From Branchiostoma floridae (lineage: Eukaryota > Chordata > Leptocardii > Amphioxiformes > Branchiostomatidae): 64,000 bases of DNA. Positions 40,331-54,670 of this stretch are shown here, one piece after another (position 1 is the first letter of the stretch; each line of letters starts with the position of its first letter). The notes below the pieces were generated by a model. It was not told the DNA's origin, ran no database searches, and worked only from the letters and a program-made list of their open reading frames with translations. Made by a program: the position numbers and the translations under genes. The stretch covers positions 22,553,976-22,617,975 of the forward strand of contig NC_049986.1 of assembly GCF_000003815.2 (NCBI RefSeq), read 5' to 3'.

Positions 40331-43300
40331 ATGGCGGCGCCCAGTGAGTCGTAAACATTTGTTTTGGAAGGGAAAACACACTTTTACGAGGTATTCTTTC
40401 CGTTTATTCACACATTGTTTCGTTCGTCAGTATCATAAGTCCTGGTGCGTTATATTCTACAACTTAACAGTCATTTCTGTGCCAAAAACGCACATTTCAT
40501 GCCAATAATGCTAGATTTTATAGAGTGCCCCCCTCCCCTTCCAATTTCATCAGGACTGTGAGTGTAACCCACCAACTTTCTTTTGTAGCAGTTTATTCGA
40601 ATCAAAAGCTCAAGTTATGAAAGTATGATTATAGCAAGGTCCATAAATTTGGGGGTTGATATTTGGGGCAGCCAGCAATTCAATCAATTTGGACAAATCA
40701 TGGCAGTTCTCTTCTTAATTTAAATTTTAAAATGCTTCTTTGTAACATCAGGGTTAGCGGGCCAGGAAGCTACTCAACTCAATGTTAACGTTCTGTCAAC
40801 AAGTTGTTTATAAGTAACATAGTGCAGATTGGTTCTGTGTGTGTAGTCTTTCTTTCACTGATGTGTCGGAATACACATCTAATGTACAAAAAGAAATTCA
40901 TGTCCCTATTGTTCCCATGACAATATTTCTGCGTTTGTGTGCCAGTCTGTTATTTCACGCCGTTAGTTTATTGTTATTGACACCTATACCAAATGAGCAT
41001 TTCGGGGTCCATTTCTTAGAATCAATTGATCAAGTACAATAAATCAAGATAAATAAAATTACTTATTTATATCAACAAAGCATTAGATATGCTGCAGACC
41101 ACCAAGTCAGCAGCGGAGGTTGCGTCCCGGCTGAGCGGGGTGTTCGCTGTGTACAAACCTCCCGGGCTCAACAGCAGCAAGATGATCGCTTCCATCAAGG
41201 AAAACCTGGGGAAAGGTTTGGAGATGAGAACTTAGTTATCTTGATCTTCATTAAGGAGGGTCTGCATGGGGGGTGTTGACAACGCTTTACGCTAAATTCG
41301 GGAGGGCCGCCAACGCTTTACGTTAAATTAAGAGGGCCGCCAACGCTTTACGCTAAATTCAGGGAAGCCGCCAACGATTTACGCGAAATTCTGGAAGCTG
41401 GTAACGCTCTAGGATGCATTGTGCAACCCATAACAATATAATCAGCCGTTGTTGGCTGGTGAAATAATCGCCGACAATGTTGCAAACGGGGGTTGCTAAG
41501 TAAACCTTGTAGTAAAACACGCATGCAGGGTATTAGGTAATATCGGAAACGTTTGGCTCACCAACCTGTGTCTAGAACATGAGATATCCCTGAAGGCGAC
41601 GGTTGGCTGCCACCAGTCGTCCTGATCTTGTGACGAGAGATCTGGTACGCCAGGTGTTCTCGCACCGTGCCCGTTCCGAACTACTCTCCGTATCACTGTC
41701 GCTGCTGTCCCCGGCACTTTGCACCTCCTGATCGGCGTACGGCTCGTCTTCGCTGTCGTCAGAGTCGTACTCGGACTCATCAGTATCATCCGCTTCGAGG
41801 GAGAGGGGCAACTGAGGTCGAGGGAGTGGGGCAACTTCTTGTGGTGGATTTGGAACCGGCGCGTTGTTAACAAGTGGCTCGGCAACAGGCATTTGTTGTA
41901 CGTACAAGTTCAGTGGCAACGTGCCGGCTTTGTACATCGTCGTCTCCTGTCGCACAGTTCTTTGGCGGACGACTTTGCCATACTCTGTCGCCCAGTGCCT
42001 CATTGTTGTCTCATCCCGTTTTGCCATCTTCTTCGGCTTCAAGGGCCTTAACATAGGAAACTGCGACAGATGCATCTTGGTGTTGGGGACGGGGTAATAC
42101 GACTTGGGGTGTGTATGGTAGTAGACAGACCAGAACGCCATGCGTTTTAAGCTCTCATTCATGGTGTTGCTGAATTCTTGAGAGTAGTCCAGGACAGTCA
42201 CTGTTGGGTGCTTGAGGTGATGTGTGGCGTGTATATTTTCTGTAGCTAATGTGAGTAAGGATGAGAGATCTGGTTTGTAGTCATTGTTGAGTGTGAGCAT
42301 GTTTGTATGGAAGTCCTGCATTCCTTTCAATAGCAGCTGGACGCTTTCCTGTGTCTTGTGGGATACCGTTCCGTCCTTTCCGTTCGTGGCGCCAGTCTTT
42401 TGCCTCGCTTCATTCACATCATTCGTACATGTCTTCAAAAAGATATTAAGGTCATTGAGCGTTTCACAAGCCTCCGCAACTGTCTTACGTGGAGATTCTT
42501 CACGAGGAACCCGAATCCCAAATGCCCTGTACAGTCCACCGGTCTTCTCCAGGAACAATGCAGCTGCGTCAGTGTTCGTGATCAGTCGGATGGCTCCGGT
42601 GGCTGCATCAGTTACCAGCAGACAGGAGAGCTCCTTACATATACCCCTTGGCTGATAGAACTCAGCATACTGAGCTGTGCCATCCTGTAAACCTGGGCTA
42701 CCGCTTCCGGCTACCACCTGTATTGTGCCAACACGTGTGAGTGCTTTTACCTGGTGGCTTCCGGTGTCAGTGAATGCAAGGATGGAATCGCCTACGTCGT
42801 AAGGTATCACGGTATGGACCTCCTTACATAAAGCGGTCCCGTTGGGTACTAGTGTTTGCCACAGTGCCTGTTCCTGTACAAACTTGTACAGGCCACCCTG
42901 ACCTCCACCAAATGTAGCATACACTACCCCACCTGTATCGCTACAGACGGATAAAACCTTCATACAGCCCGTCGGGTAGTCTGCAAACTTGTCCATGGTA
43001 CCGATCAGCCCAATGCCATCTCGTGTAACCTGTACTCTGATTACTGTTTTGCTGGCGTCGTCTCCGACGATCAGGTCTCCGTTGGCTTTTGCCCAAATAG
43101 CTTCTGGGCAAATGTTGTCACCTTCCACGATGTTGAGTTTTGACCTCTGATTCGCTTTCGTTGGGCCATAGGTCCTCTCCACGGCGTTTAGGTGGTCCTG
43201 CAGCCTTGCTCGGAGTTGCTTCATAGTTCCGTCAGTAGGGAGGCCTTTACTCTCCAGTTCTGTCCTTATGTCTGCCAGTTTCTTGAAAGAGGAGACTTTT

Positions 43301-46300
43301 GGGGACACCGTTCCCTCCACTTCAATTACGGTGATCTTTGAATGTTCACAAACAAAAGCTACCCCCTGATGATATGCCAAGGAGTGGGCACACGCCAGGT
43401 CTGTCTTCAGCACTGTTGTGTCTACAGGGTTGTGCGTTCTCACCTTCACTAGTCTTGAGGTACCTTTCAAAGGGTTGAAGTCCAGAGCCAGGTAAAAACC
43501 GAAAGGGCCCAGAGTTATTGCAACGAGATGTGGATACATGCCAGGCTTGTTAGTTTCTGGATTTTTCATCAAGTCTGGAACAACTGTGCACACTACCCAG
43601 CCAGCACTTCGCAGAGCCTGCACAACTTGCGGTTGTGTCAGCCTAGTTACAGAGTCTACGGACATACGGTCTCTGTTCCGGATGTCATCCTCTCGCAGCA
43701 ACTGTTTGAAAAGTCTCCTGAGGGGTGGGTCACCTCTTTTCCGTAGCATAGCCACTAACGCCAAACAGGTACGAACACCCTGGACGACCAGAAACCAATT
43801 TGAAAATCCGCCCTTAAGTGTTTTTCCTACATGAACAGCATCCGGAATGTGCACCAACAACTTTAAATAAGGATCTAATGACCCATCGGCTATCGACTCG
43901 CGAAGCAGTTTCATTGCTGCTTTGTTACCCTCTTCGCAGTCCGTGCTGAGGACCATAACTACGATTCTCTGGCATTGTAGACCCTTTGCAATACATCTCG
44001 TACAGGCCCTGACGCTGGGATAAATGCTTGTATGTCCTACTGCAATGCAGGCATCACATACATAGCCATTTGACAGACAATTGTCGCAATGACTCACGCA
44101 GTGCTCTACGCCCTCTACGTCTACGACCAGGTCGCGGGCAGGTGCAGTGCGTAAGCAACTTCTACAGCACTGTGTTGTTCGAATCCTGCTGTGGAACAAG
44201 TCCGTCATATTTTGGCCTGTCTTGCCTTGTTTGGACATATAGTCCACAGCGACTGGCATGGACAGGTTGCCATCTAGTGTGTACAGCAGCATTATGTGAG
44301 CCTCAGTCACGATGTTTTTTGACAGCTCCTCGACATTTGCTTCAGCATTTTCTCTCACATACTGGATATCTACAGGAAATGTGAGGCCCACGTTGTTTTT
44401 GGACACAGGGTCGAACTGGATTGATGGCTTCAGTGCTGTTCCATCCCCCTGCATCACCACCGGGATGACCTTCACGGTGTCGTTATGTACGAGAGGTTGA
44501 ACGTCGGTTGGATCTTCACAGGCCAATGCGTAAAAACCTTGCAACAGGGCATGTAAGACTCCACTCTTGGTTGTATACCCAGCATTTTTCTTGGCGACAG
44601 TGAATCTTGAAGGTCCACCAAGGTTCATTTTTGCTGAAGCGGGATCTTTTATACCGCCTCGTCCCTGGCCGAGGTGCATCGGTCCTCTTAATAAGTTGAC
44701 TGTCTTTTCACCTCCATGAAACTTAATGGATCGATAGTATTCAATGACCTCCTCATCCCACTGAAAAGACTGTGATTTGTCATGTAGCATGTAGTCCAGA
44801 TTATTAGAGAGCCACTTGTACATTATTCTGTTATCTGGCATTAGTCCTGCTTGTCGTGCCTCGTGCAGTTTCAACGCTAGTGGGTCAATCCTCTGCAAGC
44901 AGACAGGTATCTCCACACTTGTCGTGATATCTTGTGTCTCGACTACGTCTTCACCAGAGTCACTGTCTGTATGGGCATCACTGGTGTCAGCGAAACTGTC
45001 CGACGTCGAAAACTGATTATCGCGGGGAAATGTGTCATCTTCACACGGAGGGGACCCATCGTCAATACTGGGGTACATGTAGGTGTCATCTTCACACGGG
45101 AAGGACTCATTATCAACACAGTCACCGGGGTAGGTGTCATCCGTATACGGGGGAGATTCATCGTCAACACCAGGGTAGGTATCCTTATACGTGTCGTTTA
45201 ATTCAACCTCACTATGGAGAAAGAACAAGAGACAATAGTTTAACAGCAGTCTTGTGTTTAATAGTCCTTCGGCAGGCTTCGGGAATGCAAACAAAATAAT
45301 TGTTTCACAGTGTATAGTTTCACTAACATTTAGTGGTCGCAAATGTTACAGGATAGTACTTGAGCTAGCTCGACATGGACGACAAAAAACTAAAGATAAC
45401 CAAGTTGATTAGTTTTCTTCTTATCATAGCTTTCTATCTAGTTGTTATACTCTTCGTAACGGTACCGGTGAAGAATACAGTACCCGGTTTGCTAATGCGT
45501 AACTTGATACTTTTAGTTCTTGCAAAACTCAAAGATCCTGAAATACTCAACTGCAGAGACTGTCTTTTGCACAATACTGATTTCATTTAAAAGTAAGTTA
45601 ATCAGCAATCAGAAATACGCAGACTTAAATTTAAGACTTAAGATTACTAATATGGTGTAACGTACATGTGATCCATGAAAGCACTAAGATAAAACTTTTT
45701 CAAGCACAACATACATGCGTGTATACTATACAATATCTTACATAGTGGTATCCACTGGTGGAAAATCCCCTGAGCTGTTGATGTCAGGGAACACCTCCTC
45801 TCCAACTGCATCGAGACTTGAAGTAGCACTGCCACTCGACTGCAACCAGGAGGCCATGGCGCCCTTGGATTTCTCCATGAGCTGCCGCTCTCTTTCCCTG
45901 GCGGGCATCTTGGTCGAGCACTTATCGTAGTGAGCTGAATCAAAACAATATTGACAGTCAGTATACATATACCACAATTTTTGTGATGCATTTGTCTTCT
46001 TCAGAGCCGTCTATAAATTTACTTATACATTCCATCACATCAGGATGATATTACCGGTGTCACAACGATACGCGGGATTCCTTACTCGCATATGCTATGA
46101 AAATTTTCGTTACAATCCTAAATCGCTTCATGTAATGTCGCTAAATAAGCTTGAAGAGAAGATAAGACACGGAAATAAAATTCATGAGCACTTTGCCGAT
46201 ATGAAAAGTCCCCATGCAGATGCATGGCTTCGGCGTGTTTGCGCTTCTTCTGCGACCTTTTGTTACGCGGCATGCATGTTTTCACAAGATGCAATAGCCT

Positions 46301-49300
46301 CACAACTGCTGGTAACTCTGAGGATGAGGGACAAATCTAGTCTCCAAAGCAAGCGCGACGTGTTAGAACCCATTTACGTTCTGTTATCTGTTTGCCATCC
46401 GGTATGACGTTGGCTGTTATTTGTTGATGAAAACGCGGCAAGAGCACCCGCAGCGGTGCACGTGCCTGCTATTGAGGCTACAACAGAGTGATGTCCCACC
46501 CTACTCATTACGTCTTTTTTATGGGGGGGAAGATGAGCAAAAGCCGGGGATGTGTTCACCGAAGCGAACTTCCCTAATCCGCGAGATGATTTTGTGCTGT
46601 CGGGCCTCGTTCTGTCATCACAAACAATAACAAAGAGCCATATCAACAGAAATAATCAACTGTACAAGTGGACACCTTTAAAGTGTAACTTGGAATAAGA
46701 TAATCTAAGATTAATGATCTCCTCGTGGCCGGCTAATTTGTCATACCAGTCACAACGTCAACCTGCGTAAATGGCAGAACATATCCGCCCCATACAGCGG
46801 TCGTACTTCACACTACACTGAAAATTATTGTTACGTGTTAAAGCGATTAGCAAGCTCCGATTACATATTGTCAACGGTCGCGGTTACCCGCAAAATAAAC
46901 ACAGCTCACTCTGAGTCTGAACAAAAAGTCGTGCACAAGTTCAAGGCACGCGCCTGCTCGGTGTGGCAATGGCAAAGCATAGCAACATGTTTAAAGAAAA
47001 CAAAAGTTGACACTCACTCTTCTTGAAGAACTTTACTCTTCCCTCCCATGCCCTTCTTGTGGGAGCTTGATGGCTTTGTGGCACATGCCACAGCGGGCAC
47101 TCAGCTCGTCGGAACAAGAAGTGCCACTCATATCAGCTAATCCTGCATGAATTTGAAGAAATAAGACATGTAACTTCTGATCTAAAACACGCCAATATAT
47201 CATTTATTATATCACATGACTTTATTATCAGACAAGCAAGCCAGGAGAAGGTATGTAGAAACTTGGTAACGTGTCTGCAAGGGGGATAAATGATATGTCC
47301 CTGTCACATTCATTGCCATAGTTACAGACATTCCTCAGTCTGATTGCAGTGTGTAAATGAAAAGGATCATAAAGTTAATTTAGACTTACCATCCTTCATC
47401 TTTTGAAGATTCTCTTCTTGCCTCTTTGTTCTTTCAATGGCGTCTCCTTTCTTCAGCTTGACGAAAAGAGCTTCATCCTCCTCCGTCGTCGCTTTACGTT
47501 TCCTTCCCCTTCGTTTCTTTGATGACACTGCGTGTTTAAAGACACCAGACCGTAAGTTCCCTTCGTATGATTTTTATCTTATGGTGAACTTATGGGTGAA
47601 ATACAAGTAACAAGGAAATGAATCGATCGGTTTTGTATGACACTTAGATGATATTAGATGTAGAACATTTCATTAATATTACCTTTCATAGTCTGCTGTG
47701 ACCCGGCATGCTTCACGACAATCTGCGGGTTTTCGCTTGTGCCGCCAGCGCTCAGCACAACCTTCCGCTCCTTGACCGTGACTGAGGATACCAAACAGAT
47801 CGAATAACTGAATAAAAGTTGAAAAAAGTCGAGACAAATAAGCGAACAGACTACCCTTATCTATCTTAGATTTCTTTGCGTTATTGCGAAGTGCTTTTCA
47901 TTTATATGTCTACTATTATATACGCTACTAGGCCATTGTGCTATGTGCACTTTGCAGTGCGTACACCACAATAATCTTTAATATTTTTTGTTCTGTAAAA
48001 CATTTTTTCGGGACTTATACGTTTCAACTTATGTGTTACACATGGACAAATTGATAAGCCTAAATATTTTTGCGCGCTTAACAAAATACTTAGAGAAACG
48101 GAGGAAAAGTGATTTGAATTGATGCGCCATATGGAGTCAATATGGCCTTATTTGGAAACTGGCGCCTAGCAGACTGGTGTACAAGGGTCTGCAAGGAAGG
48201 GGAGGGGGGCTTTCTTGGTTTGTCGTCACATACAGGGTCAATGAAATAGATCAAACAACTGACAACTTAGCCAACTTACCAATAAGTTCGCTTCTCTTAT
48301 CGAACAGCTGTCGCTCTATCCTCAGCCCGGCCACAGTGTTGATGGTGAACGTGGTCTTACCATCGTACCGTGCCAGGCTGATGTCGACGGTCTGTAGACC
48401 GTTCTTGCTGGCTGCCTCCTTCAGCCCGAGGTGTTCATCAAAAATGTCCATCAGCTGGCGCAGATCGCTCACGACGCTGTCCTCGAAAACGGAGGACTCG
48501 ACATTGCAACGGTACTGGGTCAGAACTGACCCAGAATGCGTTAAAATGCGCACGACCACTGGGGTCGCGTGGGCCATATTTGTCGACGTGTCGAGATCGT
48601 GCTCGCGTGGACCAGATGGGTCACACCGGAAGACGATGGAGAGTAGGGAGATGAAGATGGGACTAAAATTGACTCCAGATGCGATCCCGCCATCCTGCTA
48701 TACGCAGCCAAGACTGACCAATAGCGATCTAGAATCCCTCTGATGTCATTGTTCTCTCGTGCCCAGGTTAAGTATCAGAAATCCTGGGTACGAGCATGAC
48801 CCAACAGGTCATTGCGTGCCTCCGCTACGACTTACGGAAAATTGGCCAGACTACGACTTACGGAAAATTGGGAGATCAGACTACGATTTACGGGAAATTT
48901 TTAGGTTCGATTACGCTTTACGTAAAATGCATAGGCTACGCTTTACGTGAATTTATCGCGCTCCACTACGAATTACGTGAAATAAAATAGTTTCCCTACG
49001 AATTACGGGAAATTAAAAAGGCCGCCTACGCCTTACGGAAAAGAGCATGCAGACCCTCATTAAGATTCGTAGGGATGTTTTGTTTGTGTTTGTGTTGGTC
49101 ATTTATATGGAACGTCTGTCCGTTTTCAATATCCAGATGCCTGAGTTTTTGGCGTATCTTATTACCTAGATGTCTTAACTTTGTTGATGTAATTATACTG
49201 TATTACTATGTTGATTGTTATGTTTGTTCATTTTTTAAGATGGCAGAGTGATGATAATGGTTTTAAGTCTGTCAAGGGAGAGTGTTGAATTCATTACGAC

Positions 49301-52300
49301 CATTCCAACCTGTAATGCAGATAGATCTAAGAGACAAGCGTAAGTGGATTTGTACCACAAAGCCTAATGGTTTTTGTAAGACTTAATAGGGAGAGGAGCT
49401 TTCCTTTCTGCACATTCTGCAGTTGAGCAATACTCCAATAGAGAGCGCTTTTGTATAACCTGTTTGACTGATTATAAAGATTGGGTCTATTACTAGTAGT
49501 ATAAAAGAACCTCTGAGTCTGACTCCAGGCTTTATATAGACTGTTTCTTCCCTGTTGTTGTTTAGGGATCACTAATGGAGATTCCTTAATAAACAAACAA
49601 TTTAACGCAACGCCCTTCCCTGTTGTTGTCCAGAGATCACGGCCACGTTCCCCTGGGAGCCCCACAGACACGACTACAGACTGCTGCCCTCTCCTGACGA
49701 CCCCACCCAGCTGACCAGAGTGGACATCCCATCACTCTTCAAACACCCACTAGGTTAGTACATGTAGCTTACTAATACATCGTCCCACATTTTCAGGGAT
49801 ATGTTGTTCTTTAAAATGTTATTTTTCAGTTTTGAAATTAAACTTTTTATTTTAAACAATCTTCATTTTTTTAAAATAATGGGCTATTTACACATTTACA
49901 AATCAAAGCACACCATTGTCAGGTGACACCTTCACATACACGTATGTAACATGATAGCAACTAGCATTAAACCAAAAAGGTTGATCTTTAGAATAGCTGT
50001 GCTTTAGAAGAACTGTTTAATTGTGCCGTTTCAGTGAAAGGTCATGAAAAAGTGCCCATGTACTGTCAGTTTCCGCTGGACACCCTTTCTTCTGGTGTTG
50101 TGGGTAAGATTTTCTTCATTTTACTGAGTGCCATAGATACGCTTGCATGCTTTTGTGATATAAAGTGATTTATGTCAATTTTCATGTGCAATGTAACACC
50201 AGTCAAGTAAATGATTTAAAATCATGTGGATTCAACCTTGAATGGCTGATTGAATGATTGTTGTTTCAGTTTTAGGTATCAGAGATGGTATAAAGAAGGT
50301 CCGTGCCATGTTCGACGCTCACTACTCTAGGGTAAGCCTTCTTTTTTTGACGTAAGAAAGACAAGTGATATAATCTGTAACTACATTTGGTTGTTGAGGC
50401 ATTTTTGGCAATAGACATTTTAAGATGCTCGTGCATATTTTCCAGGTTGCAGTGCACTTGATAGAAAAGTTGATACCCATAGGTTAGATAAAGCGTAAAA
50501 TGAGGAAAGTCATGTTAAGTAACTGTATGTTTTCAGCAATACATAGTTGAGGGGAAGTTTGGCCTGGCTACAGACAACCATGATGCCTCAGGGAAGGTGG
50601 TGGAGAGAACTACATATGGTGAGTCATTCTCATCATCTCTTTTCCTTTGGGGACAAAGTTGCCATAATCCCAAGTTCTTGTCAGCTCATGATCATTTCTT
50701 CCCTTTTAGTTGATTTTTGAATTTTTCCTTGCTGGGGTAGCCCCTAGGCATCTGCTTTACATTGGTCACAGGCCTGTCTCTAGTTTACTTGTTGGGACGG
50801 AAAATTCTTTTACGCCATCCGTTTGCAAAATGACATGAAAGTGTTGAAAATGTACTTTCATAAGCTTAGAGTTAGAATGACCAGGAAAATCAACAAAATG
50901 GGCTCCCAAATTATGAGTAGGACAGATAAAATTTTTAGCTGGCGACAGCCCTGATTGGTCATGTGGATGATAGTGTCATAATATCATGTTCTGTGCATCT
51001 CTGATTCGCCAGACCACATCAGTGGAGAGAAGCTGGCCAGGGTCGTGTCCTTCCTACAGAGGAACCACCAGAACCTCACCACAGAGTAAGGAAACTGTGT
51101 GTCTTTGTTTAAGTGGAAGAGTAAGGACAGGCACAGTCTGTACTTACAGATAGCAATCTTACTACAGTAGTAACATGTTAGAGTTGTTCTTTGAAAAAAT
51201 CCAGACAAAATCTGACAAGCTAGTTTCAAGGGCACCGTGTCACATGTAGATTCCCTTCATTTTCAATTTTTTTTTCAAAAAGGGGCTAAGCCTATAGATT
51301 ATGACAGCCATATCATTTCTGTACTATGACATAATTTAAACCTTAAAACAACATAGTTGGAGAGATATGTCAGTAACTTGAAAATCTTATTGAAGATTAA
51401 ATGTTTCTAGTGTTTTATTTTCTAAAGCGTGTCTGATGTTGTCCTGATACAGTACATGTACCTAACTACCTACCAACCTAGCCCCTTGACCTCCTGGTCG
51501 TTGGGGGGACAAGATAGACATGAAGATGGAGAGATGTCTCCACTGCCCATCTCTGTCTCTTGCTACAATCAGCCTTTCCTGCAGGTTGATGGATGTTCAT
51601 TCTGATACATTAAATTTTGTGAATAGGTATGCAGGAGTGGACATCCAGAGCCAGGAGGCGTACGAGCTAGCCTCCCAGGGCCTGCTGCGACCTCGGATGA
51701 CCTCCCCTCCCCTGGTGCTGGCCATGAGATGTCTGGAGTACAGGCCTCCAAACTTTACACTGGGTAAGTAAGGGCAATGTGTTGGATTTCATGTACAGTC
51801 TAGCTATTGCATTACAGGCTGCATGATATACTAATGAACTAAAACACTGCTGAGAAGGAGCATTCAATATCATGACGCGTACTGCATGTAACTTGCTTTT
51901 ATGTTAATTAAGCTATTTACTTGGAAATCCATGCCCGTAGGCTGATTGCAAGGGTACAGACAGTAAAAAGTAACAAGTGTCTATTCTATACAGCTATCTT
52001 ACGATTCTACATACTTTACTGGGAGGTTTGACTTCTTTGGAGGCAGTGGCTGATGAAAAGTCCCACATTTTTAATGATTAGTGGGTTCTGTGATTATAAC
52101 AGGAATGTATTTTTATGGAGGCATCATGACAAATAATGTACTGTATTAGTATTAGAATAATATGTTGCACAGATCAGCAAAAGATGGTTCTTACTTTTCA
52201 TACAATCATACACTTGTGTTCTGCTCTGATCTGTAAATTTAAGTCATATTTGTTCTATTGACACAGAGGTCCAGTGTGTCCACGAGACCCCCCAGTGGCT

Positions 52301-52553
52301 GAGAAAGCTGGTCCATGACATCGGTCTGGAGCTGAGGTCCACGGCAGTGTCTACCAAAGTCCGCCGGACGCGGGACGGGTACTTCACGTCAGACGACGCC
52401 CTTCTCATCAAACACTGTAAATATGAGTTCGTCGCAGAAGCCATCGAGAGATCCAGACATTTGGTGTCGTGGAAGAAGCTGAAACCTGGAAGCAACTTTG
52501 CCAGGAAGGACAGTGAACTGAAAAGTGAAGAACTTCATGAAGAAGACAGATAA
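40331..52553 (+). CDS. TRUB2: TRUB2, mitochondrial TruB-family tRNA/mRNA pseudouridine synthase
   Basis: Exons 40331-40343, 41087-41215, 49634-49753, 50035-50103, 50270-50331, 50537-50618, 51013-51085, 51627-51763 and 52267-52553 sum to 972 nt: 323 aa, close to the about 331 of human TRUB2, with every phase consistent. Recognisable blocks: GVFAVYKPPGL near the N-terminus; the TruB catalytic region FPLDTLSSGVVVLG (about residues 105-118, Asp in LD); SQEAYELASQGLLRP; and ETPQWLRKLVHDIGLELRST followed by VRRTRDGYFTSDDALL. The 13-nt first exon gives MAAP; an internal Met at 41089 is an alternative start. The family converts uridine to pseudouridine, and human TRUB2 acts in mitochondria on mt-mRNA. 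Odd points: intron 2 (8.4 kb) is almost entirely one inserted transposon, and the last exon is followed by an array of its own degenerate copies. The C-terminal SWKKLKPG...EEDR tail differs from vertebrates. Confidence 0.92.
41281..41415 (+). repeat. Left subterminal repeats of the transposon
   Basis: Four units of about 30 bp: AACGCTTTACGCTAAATT, AACGCTTTACGTTAAATT, AACGCTTTACGCTAAATT and AACGATTTACGCGAAATT, plus a partial TAACGCTCTAGG. Most are preceded by GCCGCC. Candidate transposase-binding sites. Confidence 0.85.
41572..48577 (-). CDS. Transposon-encoded protein: transposase-like core with SAP-like and NHL-like regions
   Basis: Exons in order 48280-48577, 47683-47781, 47390-47527, 47018-47142, 45742-45934, 41572-45211; about 1,496 aa. 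All junction phases agree except exon 4, which needs two frame shifts. ATG at 48577, stop TAG at 41572. Exon 3 holds a basic cluster (KKRRGRKRK), a likely nuclear signal. Exons 4-5 look like a CxxC...HxxxC zinc finger (CGMC; HYDKC), perhaps BED-like. The large exon begins with acidic DDTYPG-type repeats. It continues with GDGTALKPSIQFD (about 44447), a Cys-rich cluster (CCRSC, CDNC, CDAC, CTRC; about 44174-43991), STDCEEGNK (about 43947) and HIPDAVHVGK (about 43848), which fit an RNase-H-type DDE core. Then come a SAP-like helix pair (about 43285-43190), an NHL-like stretch (VAGSGSPGLQDGTAQYAEFY, about 42720-42660) and an acidic tail. Transposase function is inference from these motifs plus the TIR context. 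Confidence 0.8.
48826..49040 (+). repeat. Right subterminal repeats of the transposon
   Basis: Eight units of about 25-30 bp: TACGACTTACGGAAAATT (twice), TACGATTTACGGGAAATT, TACGCTTTACGTAAAATG, TACGCTTTACGTGAATTT, TACGAATTACGTGAAATA, TACGAATTACGGGAAATT, TACGCCTTACGGAAAAGA. They have the same orientation as the left units, not inverted, unlike the termini. Confidence 0.85.
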
Positions 52554-52599
52554 CAAGAATTTAGATGCGCTGTCAGATACAATTATATATTACCAACTT

Positions 52600-54670
52600 G
52601 AAGGGATATAGATGAATAAATGAATAAATACATTTGTACCAAGGGATAGAAATGGATACACAATCTCTCGCTGTCAGCTCATTGGGCCTCCTAGCTGCCT
52701 GCCCAGTGGAAGAGCTGCTAGAAGCATGATTTAGTCAGGCTAAAGATGTGTTTATCATCAAACACTGCAAGTATGATTATGTCGCCGAAGCCATTGAGAG
52801 ATCCAGACATTTGGTGTCGTGGAAGAAGCTGAAACCTGGGAGCAACTTTGCTAGAAAGGACAGTGAAATTAGAAGTGAAGAAGAACTACATGAAGATGAC
52901 AGATGACAAACAATGGAGATGCAGTTGCTGTCAGATATCATATTACGAAGGGACAGAATTTGCTTCACAATTTCTTGCTGTCAAGGGGCTGACCGGGCCT
53001 CCTTTTAGGGTCCTGCCCAGTGGAAGGACTGCTAGAAGCATGATTTAGTCAGGCTAGAGATGCACATCTCATCAAACACCGCAAATATATGAGTTTGTGG
53101 CTGAAGCCATCGAGAGATCCAGACATCTGGTGTCATGGAAGAAACTGAAACCTGGGGACAACTTTGCCAGCAAGGACAATGAAGTTAAAAGTGAAGATGT
53201 ACTGCCTGAAGAAGACAGATGACAAACAATGTAGAGATACACAACCTCTTGCTGTCAGGTGGCTCATTGGGCCTCCTTCTAGGGTCCTGCCCAGTGGAAG
53301 GACTGCTAGAAGCATGATTTAGTCAGGCTAGAGATGCGTTTCTAATAAAACACTGCAGATACAAGTACATTGCAGAAGCCATCGAGAGATCCAGACATCT
53401 CGTGTCATGGAAGAAGCTGAAACCTGGGGACAACTTTGCCAGGAAGGACAGTGAACTTAAAAGTGAAGATGTACTGCATGAAGAAGACAGATGACAAACA
53501 ATGTAGATACCATATTACCAAGGGATAGAATCAGATACACAACCTCTTGCTGTCAGGCATCTCATTGGGCTTCCTTCTAGGATCCTGCCCAGTGAAAGAG
53601 CTGCTAGAAGCTGATTTAGTCAGGCTAGAGATGCATTCTCATTAAGCACTGCAGATATGAGTACGTTGCTGAGGCCATTGAGAGATCCAGACATCTAGTG
53701 GATGAAGCTGAAACCTGGGGACAACTGTCTTTGCTAGGAAGGACAGTGAACTGAAAAGTGAAGATGAACTGCATGAAGATAACAGATGACAAACAATGTA
53801 GATACCATATTACCAATTAAGGGACAGAATTGGTTACACAATTTCTCGCTGTCAGGAAGCTCATTGGACCTTCTTCTAGGGGCCGGCCCAGTGGAAGGGT
53901 TGCTATAAGCATGATTTAGTCAGGCTTGAGATTTGTTTATCATCAAACACTGCAAATACGAGTACATCGCAGAAGCCATTGAGAGATCCAGACATCTTGT
54001 GTCATGGAAGAAGCTGAAACCTGGGGACAACTTTGCCAGGAAAGACAGTGAACTGAAAAGTGAAGAAGAACTACATGAAGATGACAGATGACAAGAATGT
54101 AAATGCGCTGTCAGATACAATTATTACCAACTTGAAAGGATATAAGTGAATAAATAAATAAATACATTTGTACCAAGGTCCAAGGGATAGAAATGGATAC
54201 AATCTCTCACTGTCTGGCTCTTTGGGCCTCCTTCTAGGGTCCTGCCCAGTGGAAGGGCTGCTATAAGCTCAATTTAGTCAGGCTTGAGATGTGTTTATCA
54301 TCAAACACTACAAATACGAGTGTGTGGCTGAGGCCGTGGAGAGATGCAGACATCTGGTGTCATGGAAGAAACTGAAACCTGGGGATAACTTTGTCAGGAA
54401 GGACAGTGTAGTTAAAAGTGAAGGAGAACTTCATAAAGAAAACAAATGACAAACAAATGTATAAAGGTATTGTTGCTATGAGATACCATATTTGTTTGTC
54501 CATTATCATATTTTAATGTACAATAGTTACCAAATCCAGATTAAAACACCAAGCCATTGAGAGATCCAGACATCTAGTATCAGGGAATGAGCTAAAAGCT
54601 GAGGACAATTTTTTACTAGGAAGGACAGTGAACTTAAATGTGAAGATAAAGAAGACAGATGACAATTTAG
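52600..54670 (+). repeat. Tandem array of degenerate TRUB2 last-exon copies
   Basis: After the TRUB2 stop, the last about 150 coding bases (KHCKYEFVAEAIERSRHLVS, then WKKLKPG...SELKSEE) and 3' UTR recur with a period of about 300 bp. Copies lie at about 52745-52905, 53065-53222, 53335-53492, 53635-53790, 53937-54092, 54295-54450 and a strongly decayed one at 54550-54665. Each carries a stop after the DDR/EDR-like tail. The copies have missense and indel changes and no acceptor of their own. AATAAA motifs occur at 52616 and near 54150. Confidence 0.9.

Follow-up and report, generated by a model that had tools for sequence, protein, structure and literature searches.

The order of catalytic residues D, D, DxxH, E is known from the transposases of P, hAT, Kolobok, MuDR, and Dada DNA transposons (PMC9587614). 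In the P element, the DxxH motif follows the second aspartate (D2) by 36 residues, and in THAP9 by 40 (PMC8230255); between DxxH and the glutamate (E), both have an insertion domain, which in P-element transposase is guanosine triphosphate (GTP)-binding and lies in the same place as the insertion domains of Hermes and RAG1 (PMC8230255, PMC7776569). Kolobok elements are described with a TTAA target-site duplication of 4 base pairs (bp; 3-5 bp in KolobokP), 5'-RR..YY-3' termini, and a C/DxxH motif, and some of their lineages have a finger after the first aspartate (D1) (PMC9587614). For Dada, the description gives duplications of 6-7 bp, a DxxH motif, a length of 4.7-11 kb, and introns except in Perkinsus families; the Dada-U6_DR protein has 1,402 amino acids, with spacings of 68 residues from D1 to D2 and 176 from D2 to E (PMC3706591). 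Dada elements were found without terminal inverted repeats (TIRs), they insert into small-RNA genes where their ends are known, and a 9,234-bp representative, Dada-1_BF, is listed for Branchiostoma floridae (PMC3706591). The comparison also drew on PMC12730594, PMC10045372, PMC8869645, and PMC5753468. The element considered here lies in a 64,000-nucleotide (nt) stretch of the B. floridae genome (contig NC_049986.1, positions 22,553,976 to 22,617,975, forward strand; hereafter the window), where it occupies positions 41256-49058, that is, 7,803 bp.

We consider it likely that this element is a full-length, probably disabled copy of a cut-and-paste DNA transposon family that has been active in the genome and whose six-exon gene appears to encode a DDE transposase. 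The family is best read as a lineage, possibly with the rank of a new superfamily, that has diverged within the C/DxxH (P/hAT/Kolobok/Dada) assemblage. A DNA transposon with TIRs is known as a kind; what may be new is a transposase architecture fitting no tested family.

Ends, copies, and mobility of the element

A first-pass annotation of the window had claimed 13-bp inverted termini with ATTAAG on both flanks, and these could be read, the inverted termini being perfect, at 41250-41268 and 49046-49064. The exact 13-mer GAGGGTCTGCATG is found at only two sites in the 64-kb window, which are the element ends in inverted orientation, and the termini GAGGG..CCCTC are of the GA..TC type.

The genome (513,431,437 bases in 431 contigs) was searched for further copies. 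An 18-base left-end pattern, GAGGGTCTGCATGSGGGG, gave 632 exact matches (338+294) including the window copy, and its reversed control gave none. At least three of these matches sit in a row at 100-bp spacing, so that the left ends are not all separate elements. Queries with a 301-bp left end and a 285-bp right end returned 799 and 965 candidates, of which the best 40 of each were scored, and all 36 non-self loci from the two queries were examined, with up to two mismatches per end allowed in pairing the ends. Both ends are present at 30 of the 36 loci, and one end is missing at the other six (L006, L052, L053, L066, L067, and L069). An exact 6-bp duplication flanks 28 of the 30; the flanks match at five of six positions at L059 and at four of six at L005, where an end has probably been mispaired. 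The 28 exact duplications are 28 different sequences, none of these copies has a duplication of 7 or 8 bp, and a control that compared the left flank of each copy with the right flanks of other copies gave no match in 1,260 comparisons. Three-quarters of the duplicated bases (76%) are A or T, with T at position 2 in 19 of 28 copies and A at position 5 in 22 of 28. This NTNNAN bias also fits the window copy (ATTAAG) and a related element, C3, described below (TTAGAA).

For 13 of the 28 copies, the flanks were joined and used to look for empty insertion sites, the best 40 of 120 candidates being scored. The joined flanks of L050 are matched over 108 of 108 bases in three places, with many more at lower identity, and those of L047 at up to 95%; both sites lie within repeated DNA. 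The other 11 joined flanks had no match among those listed, from which their own filled sites were likewise absent, and are uninformative. The L050 site recurs elsewhere as inverted pairs, at C9:1403071 and C9:1405929 (2.9 kb apart) and at C1:26978157 and C1:26983025 (4.9 kb apart). Because of these inverted pairs a few kb apart, L050 has probably inserted into the terminal repeat of a different transposon, as a nested insertion. For the window copy itself, no empty TRUB2 allele is among the matches listed for the joined flanks, which comprise each side of the occupied site and brief hits to repeats; one haploid assembly would be expected to give this, and it decides nothing.

As confirmation of mobility, the first-pass annotation had asked for several copies that share their ends and differ in their 6-bp flanks; this is the pattern observed, together with two empty sites. 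The family has been mobile in the B. floridae genome, with fixed 13-bp ends and a 6-bp, AT-rich NTNNAN target duplication. Inverted termini, a duplication of fixed length, many copies, and empty sites are the properties by which a cut-and-paste (TIR) transposon is recognized, and the cut-and-paste mode is assigned here from that class.

The 28 copies are 905-1,480 bp long. When they are compared with one another, alignments longer than 600 bp are obtained for 361 of 378 pairs, at a median identity of 81.6%, and nearest neighbors reach 99.2%, therefore some of them are recent. Compared with the outer 450 bp at each end of the window element, they keep the first ~155 bp at 82-87% identity and the last ~240 bp at 80-86%, with a shorter left-end match in a few, and these are the stretches that carry the subterminal repeats. 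The 28 examined copies are thus short derivatives keeping mainly both end arrays. Since the highest identity to the window ends among the best 40 scored per end is 87% on the left and 86% on the right, no scored copy derives directly from the window copy or a near twin.

The subterminal repeats that had been claimed were confirmed by counting. Exact CGTANNNCGT occurs eight times in 330 bp at the gene 5' end and four times in 330 bp at the 3' end, always in one direction, and neither in the element body nor in reverse orientation, compared to means of 0.003 and 0.02 (maximum 1) in 300 letter shuffles. At one mismatch, the body also gives five sense and six antisense matches. Consecutive starts are separated by 25-31 bp, in most cases by 30 bp, or about three helical turns. 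The counts at the two ends are 6 and 2 in C3 (plus two reversed) and 5 and 3 in a second relative, C199 (none reversed), so the repeat is common to families with different terminal repeats (GAGGGTCTGCATG versus GAGGGCCCCAAAG). CGTANNNCGT is a putative transposase binding site.

The gene, its relatives, and the putative transposase

The element gene lies on the minus strand, with six exons, GT..AG introns, and a product of about 1,500 amino acids (Table 1). Its splice phases equal those of C199 and, from frame reading, those of C3, and the spliced C199 gene is open over 1,219 joined codons with all five introns GT..AG. No other frame within the element exceeds 206 codons. Skipping exon 4 would join exons 3 and 5 in phase, with the loss of half of the finger.

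Searching the genome with the exon-6 protein, with 37 of 45 candidates scored, gave 36 matches, namely itself, C3, C199, and 33 short ones, and a search with the C3 protein gave the same pattern. The C3 and C199 proteins are open in exon 6, and each is 60% identical to the window protein. Among the short matches, 24 contain internal stops and several are parts of a single locus; C6 carries 31 of the 33, between 19.5 and 28.1 Mb, and C10 two. That interval of C6 also receives some MULE and KDZ matches, and as a guess it resembles a low-recombination graveyard, perhaps sex-linked or pericentromeric. The C3 element is 9,354 bp long, with the TIR GAGGGCCCCAAAG and TTAGAA on both sides; C199 is 93% identical to C3 in protein and has similar ends. 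In C3 and C199, the gene and its exon structure are the same and the ends that flank it are related yet different, which indicates that ends and protein travelled and diverged together. The ratio of nonsynonymous to synonymous substitution rates (dN/dS) is 0.33 for C3 against C199, and the window and C3 copies differ at a proportion of 0.83 of synonymous sites, which are saturated, versus 0.26 of nonsynonymous sites; the protein has therefore been under selection for most of its divergence. Exon 6 remains open in two coding lineages, that of the window copy and that of the C3/C199 pair. No relative was confirmed in the viral-contig, genome-contig, and phage collections searched. The three proteins also share a C-terminal tail, TRSGR[LM]VAANRRLQGY (window about 41575-41630, minus strand), which is reminiscent of the C-termini that some retroelement and Ginger proteins have.

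In Pfam searches with the window, C3, and C199 proteins, SAP alone passes the cut-off, and in the window protein only, and the PDB profile search matched NHL-repeat proteins, at best with an E value of 2.3e-9. The motifs QGDGT, STDCEEGN, IPDAVHVGK, and LATEN[IV]HATHH are kept in the alignment of all three proteins. The stretch from DxxH to E measures 534 residues and contains both the SAP and the NHL matches. In C3, the Pfam model for the N-terminal half of the P-type RNase H domain (PF21787) matches weakly (E 0.17 with the whole protein and 0.027 with a chosen 400-residue part), from the D1 motif to just before the Cys-rich block. The motif order, the DxxH spacing, the position of the insertion domain, and this weak match suggest that the protein is a DDE transposase in which NHL and SAP would form the insertion domain.

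A number of results weigh against this assignment or against an intact element. No transposase appears in the PDB listing, and no Pfam or NCBIfam transposase model (NCBIfam with two proteins) is above cut-off. PF21787 has no match in the window protein, whole or in the corresponding part, nor in C199. Among decayed relatives, D2 is lost in two of four and the H of DxxH is replaced by Y in two of three. Profile comparison with the P-like proteins of the genome itself gave no match (with alignments of only three and two sequences), and an ungapped comparison of the D1 window, scoring 20-25, stayed below the mean best shuffle window of 27 and was dropped as evidence. Single-sequence AlphaFold modelling of residues 1-965 had a mean predicted local distance difference test score of 34.6, unusable for the fold, and no DNA-binding domain was recognized in the 285-residue N-terminal part of spliced C199 (best match E 0.04). 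In addition, C199 has no 6-bp duplication at its assigned borders. Finally, exon 4 has 125 nt in the window copy versus 120 nt in C199, by which the window frame is lost. Because exon 4 runs out of frame, the window copy is probably disabled, or else misassembled at this exon. Of the six-exon gene in a full-length element that had been proposed, the six GT..AG exons and the full length were recovered, and intactness is uncertain.

Table 1. Features of the element in window coordinates. Residue numbers refer to the minus-strand protein of window:41575-45045; decayed relatives are counted by distinct place covering each motif.
Feature	Position	Strand	Basis
Target-site duplication ATTAAG, left	41250..41255	.	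read in sequence
13-bp TIR GAGGGTCTGCATG, left (gene 3' side)	41256..41268	+	read in sequence
Subterminal array, 4 copies of CGTANNNCGT (gene orientation), 30-31 bp apart	41282..41383	.	within ~155 bp kept in short copies
Exon 6, main putative transposase exon, 1,212 open codons and stop (TAG 41574-41572)	41572..45211	-	open frame
Putative catalytic E (ATENIHATHH, residue 936)	42238..42240	-	invariant in alignment; E in 4/4 distinct decayed relatives
NHL-type beta-propeller repeat match (residues 752-823)	42577..42792	-	PDB profile search, NHLRC2 6g7w E 2.3e-9
SAP domain (residues 589-619)	43189..43281	-	Pfam PF02037 E 7.8e-6
DxxH motif DAVH (residues 402-405), 33 residues past D2	43831..43842	-	alignment; D 3/3, H 1/3 decayed relatives
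Putative catalytic D2 (STDCEEGN, residue 369)	43939..43941	-	alignment; D in 2/4 decayed relatives
Cys-rich, probably zinc-binding insert between D1 and D2	43972..44169	-	alignment
Putative catalytic D1 (GDGT, residue 201)	44443..44445	-	alignment; D in 5/5 distinct decayed relatives
Exon 5, second half of CxxC..HxxxC finger	45742..45934	-	frames, splice reading
Exon 4, first half of finger; out of frame here	47018..47142	-	frames, splice reading
Exon 3, basic KRRGRKRK stretch	47390..47527	-	frames, splice reading
Exon 2	47683..47781	-	frames, splice reading
Exon 1, proposed start codon at 48577	48280..48577	-	frames, splice reading
Subterminal array, 8 copies of CGTANNNCGT, 25-30 bp apart, mostly 30	48827..49037	.	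within ~240 bp kept in short copies
13-bp TIR CATGCAGACCCTC, right (gene 5' side)	49046..49058	-	read in sequence
Target-site duplication ATTAAG, right	49059..49064	.	read in sequence

Named superfamilies and alternative explanations

The named superfamilies were compared with the element through their published descriptions and through Pfam and NCBIfam models. On this basis, each of P, hAT, Dada, IS3EU, Kolobok, and KDZ departs from the element in one or more of the features tested. The first-pass statement that no nameable superfamily fits holds to this extent, and in that no transposase model passes its cut-off; the 6-bp duplication on which it partly rested is known in IS3EU/GingerRoot, Dada, and hAT6.

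The protein resembles the P superfamily in its D..D..DxxH..E order, in a DxxH 33 residues after D2, in a large domain between DxxH and E, and, in C3, in the weak match to the N-terminal half of the P-type RNase H from D1. The TIRs of the zebrafish THAP9 element also measure 13 bp (PMC7776569). It is unlike P in the duplication, which is 8 bp in P and 6 bp here (8 bp in none of 28), in having NHL/SAP in place of the GTP-binding domain, and in the Cys-rich insert between D1 and D2. No THAP domain was found in the 285-residue N-terminal part of spliced C199 or in two window frames, and GTP-binding-domain and RNase H C-terminal models are not among the listed matches. P-element-like genes whose RNase H frames are open exist in at least two places in the genome, C19:10.31 Mb and C11:17.08 Mb (L073, L074, L079, and L080).

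A 6-bp duplication is also found in hAT6, a variant of hAT. The hAT target consensus, nTnnnnAn, resembles NTNNAN in the T at position 2 and the A at the last-but-one position; hAT proteins usually have CxxH and a helical insertion domain, compared to DxxH and a beta-propeller here. No hAT dimerisation or BED domain was found by Pfam up to E 10, with filters that drop most weak matches. IS3EU/GingerRoot elements share the duplication length, whereas their termini are TA..TA, in GingerRoot occasionally TG..CA, and no integrase-type match is listed for the element protein. KDZ transposases are very large with Cys-rich segments, as here; however, Zisupton and a Dileera family have an 8-bp duplication, and the Pfam KDZ model matches none of the three proteins, though it has 12 matches elsewhere in the same genome. 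RAG1/RAG2 and ProtoRAG pair an RNase H transposase with a beta-propeller that is a separate Kelch-type protein, whereas the predicted propeller here is NHL-type and inside the same polypeptide. The RR..YY termini and C/DxxH described for Kolobok (PMC9587614) are shared, but the duplication here is 6 bp of varied sequence. In the titles and abstracts of the literature searched, which is thin on subscription journals, neither this family nor any transposase with NHL or SAP was found.

The family could nevertheless be an aberrant member of a named superfamily, most likely Dada or the hAT6/P-like group, and already be so named in Repbase, a possibility that we take seriously while judging it rather less than probable. 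On duplication length, DxxH, introns, and size, Dada as described is the closest named system, with multi-exon genes for a protein of ~1,400 amino acids and a report from B. floridae itself (PMC3706591); the hAT variants with 6-bp duplications and the weak PF21787 match of C3, which points to P, speak for the same explanation. However, Dada is described without TIRs and as target-specific where ends are known (PMC3706591), whereas the present family has perfect TIRs and 28 different targets in 28 copies, among which RNA genes were not scanned for. The catalytic spacings here are 168 (D1-D2) and 567 (D2-E) rather than 68 and 176, and the CCCC finger before D1 and the C-terminal CCHC given for Dada (PMC3706591) differ from what a by-eye alignment shows here, namely a Cys cluster between D1 and D2, a CxxC..HxxxC finger upstream, and no C-terminal CCHC. 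The hAT, P, and KDZ models stay below cut-off here, yet PF21787 and the KDZ model detect members in the same genome.

It is improbable that the long protein is a passenger gene whose ends are moved by another transposase. The lack of any transposase domain above cut-off would fit such a passenger, NHL and SAP not being diagnostic of transposases, as would the hundreds of left ends and the 28 examined short copies that share only end stretches with the element; but no other frame above 206 codons exists within it, the same gene and exon structure recur between the different ends of C3 and C199, and a zinc finger with repeat arrays at both ends would suit a self-mobilising element. Domestication of the window copy as a host gene, instead of a decaying transposon, seems very improbable: in its favor stand the 1,212 uninterrupted codons of exon 6 and the identity of no more than 80-87% between the ends of this copy and those of the short copies, but the perfect TIRs and the duplication are kept and exon 4 is out of frame. 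As to the rank of the family, we propose only tentatively, at a strength just short of an even balance, a new superfamily-level C/DxxH lineage, in which a zinc cluster and an NHL/SAP insertion would split the catalytic RNase H domain, with largely unidirectional end repeats phased at 30 bp and a 6-bp NTNNAN target.

Host gene, proposed mechanism, and significance

The element had been placed antisense in TRUB2. The antisense position stands, and the host gene is TRUB2-like by the match of its exon at 52230 to TruB_C_2 (E 1.3e-4); the identification is less firm elsewhere, as two other pieces match TruB_N at only E 0.1-0.2 and the first host exon (41089-41214) has no domain match. Another five to six diverged copies of the last TRUB2-like exon follow it in tandem at window 52395-54612. 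The 152-nt exon unit has five further copies with 74-84% identity to the first, spaced at 272-597 bp, and its 62-nt core has six, some of the copies with short open frames.

For the transposon, the following scheme is the most likely. The N-terminal finger and basic stretches, perhaps with SAP, would bind the phased subterminal arrays, and the transposase would pair both element ends. The ends would be cut by an RNase H fold with D201, D369, the DxxH at 402-405, and E936, and would be joined to the target strands with a 6-bp stagger at AT-rich NTNNAN sequences. The NHL beta-propeller and SAP, in the position of an insertion domain, may hold the ends or the target DNA.

The family explains hundreds of repeats in the B. 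floridae genome, as seen in the 632 exact left-end patterns. To our knowledge, no insertion domain of the beta-propeller kind has so far been known inside a transposase. If true, such a propeller would add to the kinds of insertion domain and could be set beside RAG2, the propeller protein that accompanies RAG1. A further lineage would be noteworthy because Repbase, according to the survey cited, counts 20 eukaryotic DNA-transposon superfamilies with a DDD/E transposase (PMC9587614).

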